From positions 1,302,001 to 1,366,000 of the forward strand of contig NZ_AP031322.1 in assembly GCF_041154675.1 (NCBI RefSeq): a stretch of 64,000 nt of DNA. Direction: 5' to 3'. The position numbers and the translations under genes were made by a program. A model generated the notes under the pieces. That model ran no database searches, had not been told where the DNA came from, and was given only the letters and a program-made list of their open reading frames with translations. The DNA is from Sulfurisphaera javensis (GTDB taxonomy: Archaea > Thermoproteota > Thermoprotei_A > Sulfolobales > Sulfolobaceae). Of this stretch, positions 6,066 to 60,410 are shown in pieces (the stretch's first letter is position 1; every line of letters begins with the position of its first letter).

Positions 6066-6609
6066 TACCTATCACCTCTTTTTTATATATGTAAATTCCA
6101 TCTGCAAAAACTCTTCTATCATAACCAGTAATTTTAGTAGCTAACTCAATATTAGCTGCTGTTTGACTAACGTTTTCAATATCTTGACCTTCTACGATTA
6201 TATCTTCTCCTTTAACAGTAACTTTAACTCCAGGAAGTATCTTGGCTTTTCTTATGTTTTTTTCTCCTATTAGGTTTTGTATTTGTACCTCGTTACTACT
6301 TACTTTTACAGTAACTGGGAAGTGAGTATAAATTATCTTAAGATAATATCTATAGCCTTTTGTTACACCAGTAAACATATTTTCAATATGAGCAATTATT
6401 GAATAGAATTGTGCTTTCTTTCTCCTATCAGCAAAAGTAGTTTCTACTATTATTTTATTATCTTCTTTTTTTAGTTCAATACTACTTATATGGCTAAAAT
6501 CCTTTTCTATTTCTCCTTTAGGTCCTTTTACTTTAACTTTCATGCCATCTATGTTAACTGTTATTCCTTGCGGAATTTCTATTTCTTCATATAAATGAAC
6601 AGCTTTCAT
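6049..6609 (-). CDS. rpl6: 50S ribosomal protein L6
   Basis: Large-subunit protein near the factor-binding site, built from two repeats of the L6 fold. ATG at 6609 ([15 protein letters not shown]) is preferred over an in-frame ATG three codons upstream because homologous L6 proteins begin close to the EIEIP strand. The last 17 bases overlap rpl32e. Family-typical length of about 186 residues. Confidence 0.94.
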
Positions 6610-7735: not shown

Positions 7736-8467
7736 TTACTTTACCCCCACATTAGGATCAATTTCATTCTCTCCAATTGCCATAACGTTTTGAAGATTAG
7801 TTTCAACAATCTCTCCATTCTTTTGCTCTATAGCTACAATGCTATACTTCCTTTTCTTGTAGTTTGCATATTGTATTGATTTAATTATTCCATGTAGTCC
7901 TACGTTTCTTCCACCGATTACTATAGCATATTTTCCTTCTTTAATTTCATAAGTTTTCACTATGCTCTGTGAAGGAGTTTCAATTTTTAATGTAGTTAAT
8001 GTAGGATAATTCATTTCAGGTATTTTTTCTTTGGGAATTAAAATATTTCTACCATCTTCAAGATTTAATTGTAAATTTCCGTTCTTATTTGTCGTCTTAT
8101 TAATTATTCTAACGAACTTATATTTGGCATCTTCTTTTGAAATTTTAACTGGGAATAGATATTTTACATTATCAGGAACTATTCTAAAGTAAAGATCAGA
8201 AGAAGGAATAGCTACAACATCCATTAATCCAACAGGGTATTTATAATCTTTTCTAACTCTCCCATCAACTGTTATCTTTCCGTCGAAAATTAGCCTCTTA
8301 GCTTCTCTAGTAGTTTCTGCAACATTAAGGTAATGTTTTAGTAGTAAGGCTAAAGGAATACTCTCAGATAATTTATGAGGACCAGCATTTGCTCTAATTG
8401 TCCATTTGTATTCCTTTTTACTTAAGTTTAAGAACCAGGGAGCTTCGAATCGAGTTATGTGAGCCAA
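7736..8467 (-). CDS. rps4e: 30S ribosomal protein S4e
   Basis: Small-subunit protein specific to archaea and eukaryotes, 243 residues. It begins with the family N terminus ([22 protein letters not shown]), then an S4 RNA-binding domain (about 40-105), and a C-terminal KOW-like part with [13 protein letters not shown]. Directly follows rpl24. Confidence 0.96.
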
Positions 8468-41816: not shown

Positions 41817-41914
41817 GCGGGGGTGCCCGAGCTGGTCAAAGGGGGCGGACTTAAGACCCCCAGTAAGTGATCCGCTGGCGAAGGCCTGCGTGGGTTCAAA
41901 TCCCACCCCCCGCA
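41817..41914 (+). tRNA. tRNA-Leu (anticodon TAA) with a 14-nt intron
   Basis: Acceptor stem GCGGGGG (41817-41823) pairs with CCCCCGC (41907-41913), discriminator A at 41914; CCA is not encoded. T arm GGGTTCAAATCCC and a long variable arm (TGGCGAAGGCC) mark a class II tRNA-Leu. The anticodon stem is GCGGA ... TCCGC with anticodon TAA at 41852-41854. Removing 14 nt between positions 37 and 38 gives an 84-nt tRNA. This gene and the one at 42823-42923 are inverted copies with matching 3' flanks. Confidence 0.95.
41856..41869 (+). other. tRNA-Leu(TAA) intron
   Basis: The insert ACCCCCAGTAAGTG interrupts an otherwise normal anticodon loop after G37, the canonical archaeal position for splicing-endonuclease substrates. 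It interrupts the GCGGA/TCCGC stem loop CTTAAG-A. Confidence 0.85.
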
Positions 41915-42055
41915 TTTTATTACAATACTATTTATTTTTCATAGAAGAACAAAATGCAATATTAGAATTAGAAATGTCAATGAAATTTTTATATTTATCT
42001 TTATAAATGAAATTTTTGACTAGAAAATATGTAAAATACTTCTAAGTTAAAAACA

Positions 42056-42076
42056 TTAGCAAAAACCCTTTGCTAA
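42056..42076. terminator. Perfect hairpin, possible terminator
   Basis: TTAGCAAA and TTTGCTAA form an 8-bp perfect stem with a 5-nt loop. On the minus strand it follows the ORF ending at 42151 and is succeeded by a T run (GTTTTTAAC). It could be a terminator or a trace of a mobile element end. Confidence 0.4.
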
Positions 42077-42150
42077 AATGAAAGAAAATGCATTACTATC
42101 TATCCTAATTTTTAATGAGTTAGCATTCTATTCCTTGACTTTCAAGATAG

Positions 42151-42513
42151 TTATTCATTATCAGATATTAATAGTCCAATTAATTCATCTTCATCAGCTT
42201 TCGCATTCATATAATTCATTAATCCGTTTAAATACTGTCGTGCTTGCTGTTCATACATTATTTTCGCATTCCTTGGTAAATTTGGTTGTGCTTCTATACA
42301 AGAGTTCACTTGAGAAAGTACTTCATTATGGTTGTATGTATCATAATTTCCTGTTACTAAGCATTTTGCTTCTTCCTCTAATTGTAAAGCATATTGTTCT
42401 GATAATTGTTTTGATGCTATAGCCTCAACTAATAATGAATAATAATTTGTATAATAAGCATATTTGTACAATTCTTCTAGTTGAATGTATTGTCTAATAT
42501 ATGATTGTATCAC
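42151..42513 (-). CDS. Unrecognised ORF between inverted tRNA-Leu genes, possibly 5'-truncated
   Basis: Not recognised. From GTG at 42513 it codes 120 residues, Tyr/Gln/Glu-rich and helical (QYALQLEEEAKCLV; NAKIMYEQQARQYLNGL), ending ELIGLLISDNE. The same frame is open a further 40 codons, to 42633, with protein-like sequence (LLEFFYENFYEKLKDSIIYV) but without ATG, GTG or TTG. That suggests loss of the true 5' end, perhaps with the rearrangement that produced the inverted repeat, or a start that is non-standard. No transmembrane segment is seen. It could be a gene remnant of an element integrated at tRNA-Leu. Confidence 0.45.
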   Translation of the reverse strand: MIQSYIRQYIQLEELYKYAYYTNYYSLLVEAIASKQLSEQYALQLEEEAKCLVTGNYDTYNHNEVLSQVNSCIEAQPNLPRNAKIMYEQQARQYLNGLMNYMNAKADEDELIGLLISDNE

Positions 42514-42822
42514 GTACTCATATCCAGCTGAATTATCTGCTTTAACACCTGCTCTTGAGAAGACATATATTATACTATCCTTTAACTTTTCATAAAAATT
42601 CTCATAGAAGAATTCAAGTAAAATTTCTAGGAATTATAGTAGGCTATTCAATTATATAATTACTTTTTATTCTAATGTTATGCTATCTATATTAAAAACT
42701 CTGATAAGAATTAATTGGCATTTAATTTCTTGAAGGTAATTCTATTAACTAAGAATTTTAGATCTATTAAGTTTTATATCAATTTAGTTCTTCTATGAAA
42801 AATAAATAGTATTGTAATAAAA

Positions 42823-42923
42823 TGCGGGGGGTGGGACTTGAACCCACGCAGGCCTATGCCATCGGGGCTCTTACCATTAAGGTCCTAAGCCCGACCCCTT
42901 TGACCTTGCTCGGGCACCCCCGC
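42823..42923 (-). tRNA. tRNA-Leu (anticodon TAG) with a 16-nt intron
   Basis: Minus strand. Acceptor GCGGGGG (42923-42917) with CCCCCGC and discriminator A at 42823. The anticodon stem TCGGG ... CCCGA carries anticodon TAG at 42887-42885. After removing the 16-nt insert between 37 and 38 it is 85 nt. Class II variable arm (TGGCATAGGCC) and T loop TTCAAGT. Position 38 would be C, which is a small departure. Confidence 0.93.
42868..42883 (-). other. tRNA-Leu(TAG) intron
   Basis: ACCTTAATGGTAAGAG, inserted after G37 at the same site as the intron of tRNA-Leu(TAA) but with a different sequence apart from the opening ACC and a GTAAG core. Confidence 0.8.
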
Positions 42924-59358: not shown

Positions 59359-59841
59359 ATGAGTTGTGATAGAATATCTGAGGCGTTAATATATTTATGG
59401 ATAGGAGAATCAAAAGAAGCTGAAAATATCTCCAAAGAATGTCTTCAGAGTCTAAGAGATAGTATCTCAAAAATCAGAGAAAAAATCAAGGAGATAAAAG
59501 CAAATGTTGAAGAAGAATATATATTGCCTTTCTATTTGAGAGAAAAAGGAATAGAAACTGAAGATTTGATAAAATTAGCACTTTATGAGCTATCTAGGCG
59601 TATTAACATGTTTCCTGGTAATTCTTCATCAAAGAATTTTGATGGTGTTAAATACAACGTGTTTTATAGTGGTCAAAAAACAATAATAAGAGGTTATTGT
59701 AAAGATTGTAAAGGATATAAATTTGAAGATATAGATAGAGGATTTCTGATAAAACTTGATGGACTTATTTATGGTGAAATATTAGGAAGTATTAAGGAAG
59801 ATAGTGAAATAAAGAAATTAATAAGTGAATTAATAAAGTAG
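59359..59841 (+). CDS. Conserved unknown protein with a Cys pair
   Basis: Not recognised. ATG at 59359 (MSCDRISEAL) is chosen over an in-frame GTG three codons upstream. About 160 residues: a long charged helical N terminus (SLRDSISKIREKIKEIKAN) and a C-terminal beta part with GYCKDCKGYKF. Coupled to the preceding gene. Ends 52 bp before the shared tRNA-Leu flank. Confidence 0.55.
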   Translation: MSCDRISEALIYLWIGESKEAENISKECLQSLRDSISKIREKIKEIKANVEEEYILPFYLREKGIETEDLIKLALYELSRRINMFPGNSSSKNFDGVKYNVFYSGQKTIIRGYCKDCKGYKFEDIDRGFLIKLDGLIYGEILGSIKEDSEIKKLISELIK

Positions 59842-59892
59842 TTTTATATCAATTTAGTTCTTCTCTGAAAAATAAATAGTATTGTAATAAAA
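59841..59892. repeat. Third copy of the tRNA-Leu 3' flank
   Basis: 52 bp (GTTTTATATCAATTTAGTTC...) matching 42771-42822 with one mismatch (TTCTCTG versus TTCTATG). It lies downstream, in tRNA orientation, of tRNA-Leu(GAG), and contains T-rich runs that could end transcription. Confidence 0.85.
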
Positions 59893-59977
59893 TGCGGGGG
59901 GTGGGACTTGAACCCACGCAGGCCTACGCCAGCGGAGCCTCAGTCCGCCCCCTTTGACCTTGCTCGGGCACCCCCGC
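59893..59977 (-). tRNA. tRNA-Leu (anticodon GAG)
   Basis: Minus strand, 85 nt, no intron. Acceptor GCGGGGG with CCCCCGC, anticodon loop CTGAGGC in the stem GCGGA/TCCGC, class II variable arm (TGGCGTAGGCC). Shares D-arm sequence GAGCAAGG with the TAG isoacceptor and the same T arm. The only intronless member of the trio. Confidence 0.95.
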
Positions 59978-60410
59978 ACAACAAATATATTAATTCATAG
60001 GGCTAAAAATGTTTTCTTTAACCAAAGACCTTTATATTAAAATGCCAAATTGAAGTACTCAGTGCAAGAAAGAGAAATATAAAACCTTAATAAGTTAAAG
60101 AGATTATTGTCTTTCTATTAACGAGCACTGAAAACTGTTTCATAAATCTGTAAATTTATATGTTTTCAATTTAATTTATTTCTAGAATCCTAACTAAACA
60201 GAAATGATAATTCACGAATAGTGGTAGAAAATGGAAAAGATGTTTTCTCGTAGTAAGTTGAGGTGGTTTCCACAAAAGTAATGAAGAAGAATGATATGGT
60301 TTGTAGTAGTCTAGTGACCTATTTGTATAAACAAATAGTTACCTATTAAACCTATAGCAAGCTTTATTAGGCAATTGAAGCTAAATTAAATATCAGATTA
60401 GGGATGAGTC
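59978..60410. other. Long intergenic region before aRF1
   Basis: About 430 bp with no ORF of coding character. It contains a 7-bp perfect hairpin CTATTTG/CAAATAG (60319-60338) and the heptamer ACCTATT around 60318 and 60341, with a near copy ACCTATA at 60350. No C/D or H/ACA box was found. Confidence 0.5.

Follow-up and report, generated by a model that had tools for sequence, protein, structure and literature searches.

A flank common to four tRNA-Leu genes of Sulfurisphaera javensis is probably the left end of a small single-gene integrative element

Four of the five tRNA-Leu genes of Sulfurisphaera javensis are followed directly by the same short flank. Most probably this flank is the left end of an integrative element of ~1.9 kb which carries a single orphan gene (~550 aa), inserts at the 3' ends of tRNA-Leu genes and is mobilised in trans. 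The long inverted repeat formed by two of these tRNA genes is, on present evidence, a footprint of the element and not an inversion switch, and the finding is largely explained. The window analysed is a stretch of 64,000 nucleotides corresponding to bases 1302001–1366000 of the single-contig 2.57-Mb genome. The features of interest in it are listed below; those assigned to the element are to be read as putative.

41817–41914, plus strand: tRNA-Leu(TAA) with a 14-nt intron, target site 1 (Rfam RF00005, 48.7 bits; ARAGORN with introns)
41915–41950, plus strand: left-end stub of the element at TAA, 36 nt identical to the TAG flank
42120–42628, minus strand: broken copy of the single gene of the element at TAG (blastn against the CAG locus; alignment; family match)
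42752–42822, minus strand: left end belonging to the TAG copy of the element; all 71 nt have a homologous counterpart in the CAG copy, and the first 36 nt are common with TAA
42823–42923, minus strand: tRNA-Leu(TAG) with a 16-nt intron, target site 2 (Rfam, 46.4 bits; ARAGORN with introns)
59839–59891, minus strand: left-end stub of the element at GAG, 53 nt with one mismatch to the TAG flank
59892–59978, minus strand: tRNA-Leu(GAG) without an intron, target site 3 (ARAGORN)

The convergent arrangement of tRNA-Leu(TAA) on the plus strand and tRNA-Leu(TAG) on the minus strand, 0.9 kb apart, had been described in the initial annotation and is confirmed by Rfam and by ARAGORN with introns; both genes were missed by ARAGORN run without introns. 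The introns themselves vary within the genus: that of tRNA-Leu(TAA) is present here and in one sister genome (G002) and absent in the other two (G001 and G003), and tRNA-Leu(GAG), intronless here, has a 19-nt intron in all three. The arms of the inverted repeat (41863–41955 and 42782–42874) are 91% identical and are accompanied by further pieces. The inverted repeat is thus real, but the arms of ~135 bp are not near-identical along their whole length as was first claimed, since the identity over tRNA and flank combined is only 87%. The flank reported as a common 37-bp segment does match exactly, but over 36 nt after the 3' A of the tRNA (41915–41950 and 42787–42822, read from the sequence). 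With the tRNA 3' end counted in, the exact run between TAA and TAG is 50 nt.

A pattern search allowing up to three mismatches finds four copies of the flank in the 2.57-Mb chromosome, each directly 3' of a tRNA-Leu gene: TAA, TAG, GAG (59892–59978 of the window) and CAG (genome position 1247370). The fifth tRNA-Leu gene, CAA, is without it. The restriction of the flank to these four places, always behind a tRNA-Leu gene, excludes chance. The sharing first noticed for the TAA–TAG pair therefore stands, but it extends to four genes and not two. Alignment of the tRNA-Leu flanks of three other genomes of the genus shows that each isoacceptor there has its own flank and that none of these resembles the flank found here. 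The sister flanks are kept to a varying degree (for example, 33 of 37 positions for TAA and 35 of 37 for CAG between G001 and G003). Their isoacceptor-specific nature rejects descent from a common tRNA-Leu flank, the ordinary explanation which had been considered from the outset, and means that the flanks were replaced in this lineage.

The nature of the replacing DNA is seen at tRNA-Leu(CAG), outside the window, where the flank is continued by 1.9 kb of DNA containing a single 550-aa gene. The order of this site is intact tRNA, left end, the 550-aa gene and then a copy of the tRNA 3' end, the insert being ~1.9 kb long. It is bounded by an exact 21-bp direct repeat, TCAAGTCCCACCCCCCGCATT, located at 6452–6472 and 8360–8380 of the CAG locus (L008) with a spacing of 1908 bp. 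The repeated core covers the tRNA from the T-loop to the acceptor end plus TT. Its right-hand copy lies 57 bp behind the gene and is the sole non-tRNA copy of the core in the chromosome (up to three mismatches). Elements integrated at tRNA genes are typically recognised by an intact tRNA gene and, displaced from it but equally oriented, an exact fragment of its 3' end; both are found here. The CAG copy of the element with its 21-bp repeat and the broken copy at TAG support the suggestion of the initial annotation that the inverted repeat is the footprint left by an element on integration at a tRNA 3' end. The 1908-bp insert contains no integrase gene, the orphan being its only gene, and the core search found no right-hand repeats for the TAA, TAG and GAG copies anywhere in the chromosome.

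The CAG site is without the element in the three sister genomes. The empty site is not directly readable there because the DNA beyond the right-hand repeat is locally inverted here relative to the sister species. The inversion concerns the gene beside this repeat (L008 8360–9175; genome 1249359–1250174), whose 3' end now extends into the 21-bp core. Further along the same locus a displaced 3' fragment of tRNA-Phe (84%) adjoins an intN remnant ~0.7 kb from tRNA-Phe (L008 9472–9513 and 10185–10227); judged by this arrangement, the pair would be the footprint of another tRNA-integrated element.

The copy at tRNA-Leu(TAG) is broken. It retains, in this order, 71 nt of the left end, an altered leader, the N-terminal coding part and, after an internal deletion of ~1.2 kb, the C-terminal end; frameshifts are located near both ends, and the mechanical open reading frame spans only 42151–42513 (120 aa). 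Comparison of this locus (L006) with the CAG locus by blastn gives 98% identity over 210 bp and 91% over 329 bp, and the coding parts of the two gene copies are ~98% identical. The counterpart gene of the sister species has 46% amino acid identity, and this difference points to a recent spread within the present lineage. At TAA and GAG only left-end stubs of 36 and 53 nt are left. Positions 41951–42120, which separate the TAA stub from the broken gene, have no match except weak short ones. Folding of the left end as a DNA hairpin is no better than that of shuffled sequences (z −0.25). Near the left end there is an inverted motif pair, TTCATAGAAGAA and TTCTTCTATGAG (42599–42624 and 42776–42801 of the window; L008 6490–6506 and 6597–6625), both halves of which differ from one element copy to the other (CATAG/CTATG versus CAAAG/CTTTTG). 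With two copies at hand, these motifs are possible candidates for binding sites.

The convergent TAA–TAG pair with syntenic outer flanks is present in all three sister genomes. The DNA between the two tRNA genes differs: in G001 and G003 a family gene extends from the TAA side, and G002 has open reading frames which are candidates for transposase genes by their resemblance. The alternative named in the initial annotation, that arms and inner segment are fixed in distant Sulfolobales, does not hold. The convergent tRNA pair is the older, genus-wide arrangement; the copies would have landed in it and thereby turned the arms into a longer inverted repeat. In the S. tokodaii-like relatives tRNA-Leu(TAA) abuts an N-terminal remnant of an SSV-type integrase, which indicates that this tRNA was an integrase target in the genus. 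Integrases specific for tRNA-Leu have thus existed in the genus. Behind tRNA-Leu(TAA) there are two successive intN-like remnants in G001 (L088 4450–5323) and one in G003; the double remnant looks like the result of tandem integration at one tRNA.

The present genome has three integrases, an SSV-type one at tRNA-Val, one of 434 aa and a XerA-like one, and all three loci lie elsewhere. The genome yielded no integrase with specificity for tRNA-Leu, and no intN-like match adjoins its TAA, TAG, GAG or CAG tRNA-Leu genes. An N-terminal integrase part overlapping the tRNA, as left by split integrases, is seen at tRNA-Leu(TAA) of the sister species and not at these genes, and an intact integrase gene adjoining the tRNA, as in the pNOB8 type, is not seen at them either. 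Searches for the C-terminal integrase part near the family genes gave only short matches, either within tRNA genes or weak. The tRNA-Val locus (L134 6690–12237; genome about 1236689–1242236) has an SSV-type intN and intC, and a second intN overlapping tRNA-Val ~5 kb away, with a 728-aa open reading frame between them; it is probably a plasmid integrated at tRNA-Val.

The orphan gene belongs to a protein family found in 15 of the 147 genomes of the order (7 of 61 genera), all from the taxonomic family to which S. javensis belongs. In the present genome seven of the eight family loci are no more than 1.1 kb away from one of the 46 tRNA genes, against an expectation of 0.5; none of 20,000 random sets reached this number. 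All six family copies at the five loci of Metallosphaera javensis (L135–L139) have a tRNA gene within 750 bp. Two filled/empty pairs of sites, obtained by comparison with another Metallosphaera genome, show the insertion itself: ~2.0 kb inserted directly behind tRNA-Arg(CCT) and ~1.9 kb inserted directly behind tRNA-Pro(CGG), each with the family gene only; on either side of the latter insert a direct repeat is still discernible in decayed form (80% over 30 bp). The family thus recurs as single-gene inserts adjoining tRNA genes. In the second Metallosphaera genome one copy is placed 5' of tRNA-Ala, and a more distant branch of the family occurs in arrays with no tRNA gene detected nearby. One array (L116; G014:C1:903000-922000) is divided into two oppositely oriented clusters, which together comprise five near-full mosaic copies and a fragment; the copies have long identical blocks in common, and there is no tRNA nearby. 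Three distant family members stand in a row between two tRNA genes at G000:C1:1154039-1158919.

The sequence of the protein gives little indication of its function. Searches with a 16-member alignment and with single sequences gave no convincing domain match in Pfam, NCBIfam, PADLOC or PHROGs. The best of the scattered weak matches is to a PHROG tail tape-measure family (8e-4, two members), which is probably due to helical low complexity. A profile search of the PDB sequences gave nothing convincing, and AlphaFold2 models of five M. javensis members (mean pLDDT 39.9) are too poor for the fold to be judged. The stretch 'IGAPVF...GLVGLVSG' resembles a trypsin-like motif, which is only an impression. 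Scanning of genome contigs with the close subfamily gave no match, and with the Metallosphaera subfamily only the five known M. javensis loci. A known virus or plasmid was also considered and rejected, as the 550-aa protein has no match in phage and plasmid records or viral contigs, among which records of near relatives may be left out.

Taken as an integrative element, the segment would have a free 1.9-kb circular form with the junction AGAGTTATTTAAC-TCAAGTCCCACCCCCCGCATT-TTATTACAATATTG. The free form would recombine its copy of the tRNA 3' end with the chromosomal one, by which the tRNA would be restored and the gene placed behind it. A tyrosine integrase of another element with specificity for tRNA-Leu would act in trans, and the insertions would subsequently decay by deletion to stubs. 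Action in trans is suggested by an insert without a recognisable recombinase together with the location of the three integrase loci of the genome elsewhere; an integrase in trans is the most likely mover of the element, and self-mobilisation is possible. The att sites of Sulfolobales integrases are usually 40–50 bp long (PMC8371274), so the 21-bp core may point to a different kind of enzyme. At the T-loop position occupied by G in the core, the TAA gene has retained its own A; provided that an insertion did occur at TAA, the exchange took place 3' of this base. Several observations count against an element of this kind: the right-hand repeat is preserved at one site only, the 21-bp repeat is shorter than usual, the search of the genome revealed no tRNA-Leu-specific integrase, the local inversion at CAG prevents a direct reading of the empty site, and some family copies lie 5' of the tRNA, which recombination at a 3'-end att site does not explain.

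It is conceivable, though rather unlikely, that the element inserted at CAG only and that gene conversion among the tRNA-Leu genes then spread the CAG flank, and in one case also part of a neighbouring gene, to the other three. The tRNA genes have ~100 bp of homology in common, the 36 and 53 nt of flank at TAA and GAG are what short one-ended tracts would give, and TAA, TAG and GAG are without a right-hand repeat. Yet the tRNA bodies are not homogenised, as their anticodons and introns differ; the TAG copy spans 70 nt of flank and continues into the gene, beyond the guiding homology; and the CAA gene and all tRNA-Leu genes of the sister species escaped.

Slightly less probable still is that the orphan family is its own mobility factor and represents a new class of one-gene Sulfolobaceae elements which insert beside tRNA genes without a tyrosine integrase. 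This would agree with the family gene being the only one in the CAG and Metallosphaera inserts, with its copies tracking tRNA genes across several genera, mostly without an adjoining integrase gene, and with the use of both sides of the tRNA. However, no convincing likeness to a recombinase, transposase or nuclease is found in Pfam, NCBIfam, PHROGs, PADLOC or the PDB sequences, no conserved catalytic signature is recognised, the structure model (pLDDT 40) is too poor to be decisive, and the arrayed branch of the family is found away from detected tRNA genes.

The initial annotation also proposed that the arms could recombine and invert the segment between them (41951–42786), so that the convergent tRNA genes would act as an inversion switch. 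The facing arms of ~135 bp with 87% identity and the opposite direction of the family gene in the S. tokodaii-like relatives speak for it, but the comparison with the sister genomes reveals neither swapped flanks nor an inverted ortholog, and such a switch is very improbable. The genes under comparison are not orthologs but go back to separate insertions (46% amino acid identity, against ~98% nucleotide identity to the CAG copy), the outer flanks are syntenic with those of the three sister genomes, and the 3' flanks match neither ortholog, being replaced and not swapped. In Thermococcus, integrase-driven homologous inversion is reported with 104 bp (PMC8371274), and the longest exact run here, 50 nt, is below this length. 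A normal 3' trailer or terminator of tRNA-Leu genes would fit the position of the flank directly behind four of the five genes, but its absence from all other tRNA genes of this genome and the own flanks kept by the orthologous genes of three sister species refute this reading.

The integrative element, which we prefer to these readings, resembles several known systems without coinciding with any of them. Like the tRNA-integrated genomic islands as described for the Islander database (PMC4383910), it has an intact tRNA at one end and a displaced exact 3' fragment at the other; unlike islands of that description, it consists of one gene in 1.9 kb with no integrase gene inside. With the SSV-type (suicidal-integrase) plasmids and fuselloviruses of Sulfolobales, including pSSVi and pXQ1, it has in common the targeting of tRNA 3' halves, but there is no split integrase gene at the four tRNA-Leu genes and the repeat is 21 bp, not 40–50 bp. 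Sulfolobus MITEs such as SMN1 resemble it in their small size and in the lack of a recognised recombinase, but they have terminal inverted repeats and no open reading frame, in contrast to the 550-aa gene and the tRNA 3'-end repeat of the present element (PMC3718332). An insertion sequence would carry a transposase gene, but no transposase match was obtained for the element, and its ends are formed by the tRNA 3'-end direct repeat. The inverted motifs described above lie close to the left end without being terminal and in this differ from MITE ends. The inversions by IntpTN3 of Thermococcus nautili (PMC8371274) are comparable in that inverted identical segments are possible recombination partners, but there is no evidence of inversion here, and the exact run reaches 50 nt, compared with 104 bp or more there.

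Archaeal plasmids and viruses which use tRNA genes as landing sites bring an integrase and further genes with them. That tRNA genes of Sulfolobales harbour elements is well established (PMC3718332), but a keyword search of the open-licence literature did not find the single-gene, integrase-less form or the orphan family. In the present case one orphan gene of ~1.5 kb, with a tRNA 3'-end repeat as its boundary, has most probably visited most tRNA-Leu genes of one genome, and relatives of this gene lie beside tRNA genes in several genera. It would be either a minimal archaeal satellite riding the integrases of others or a protein mobilising DNA by an undescribed route. In either case such an element may help to explain the patchwork of short orphan genes in the tRNA neighbourhoods of Sulfolobaceae.
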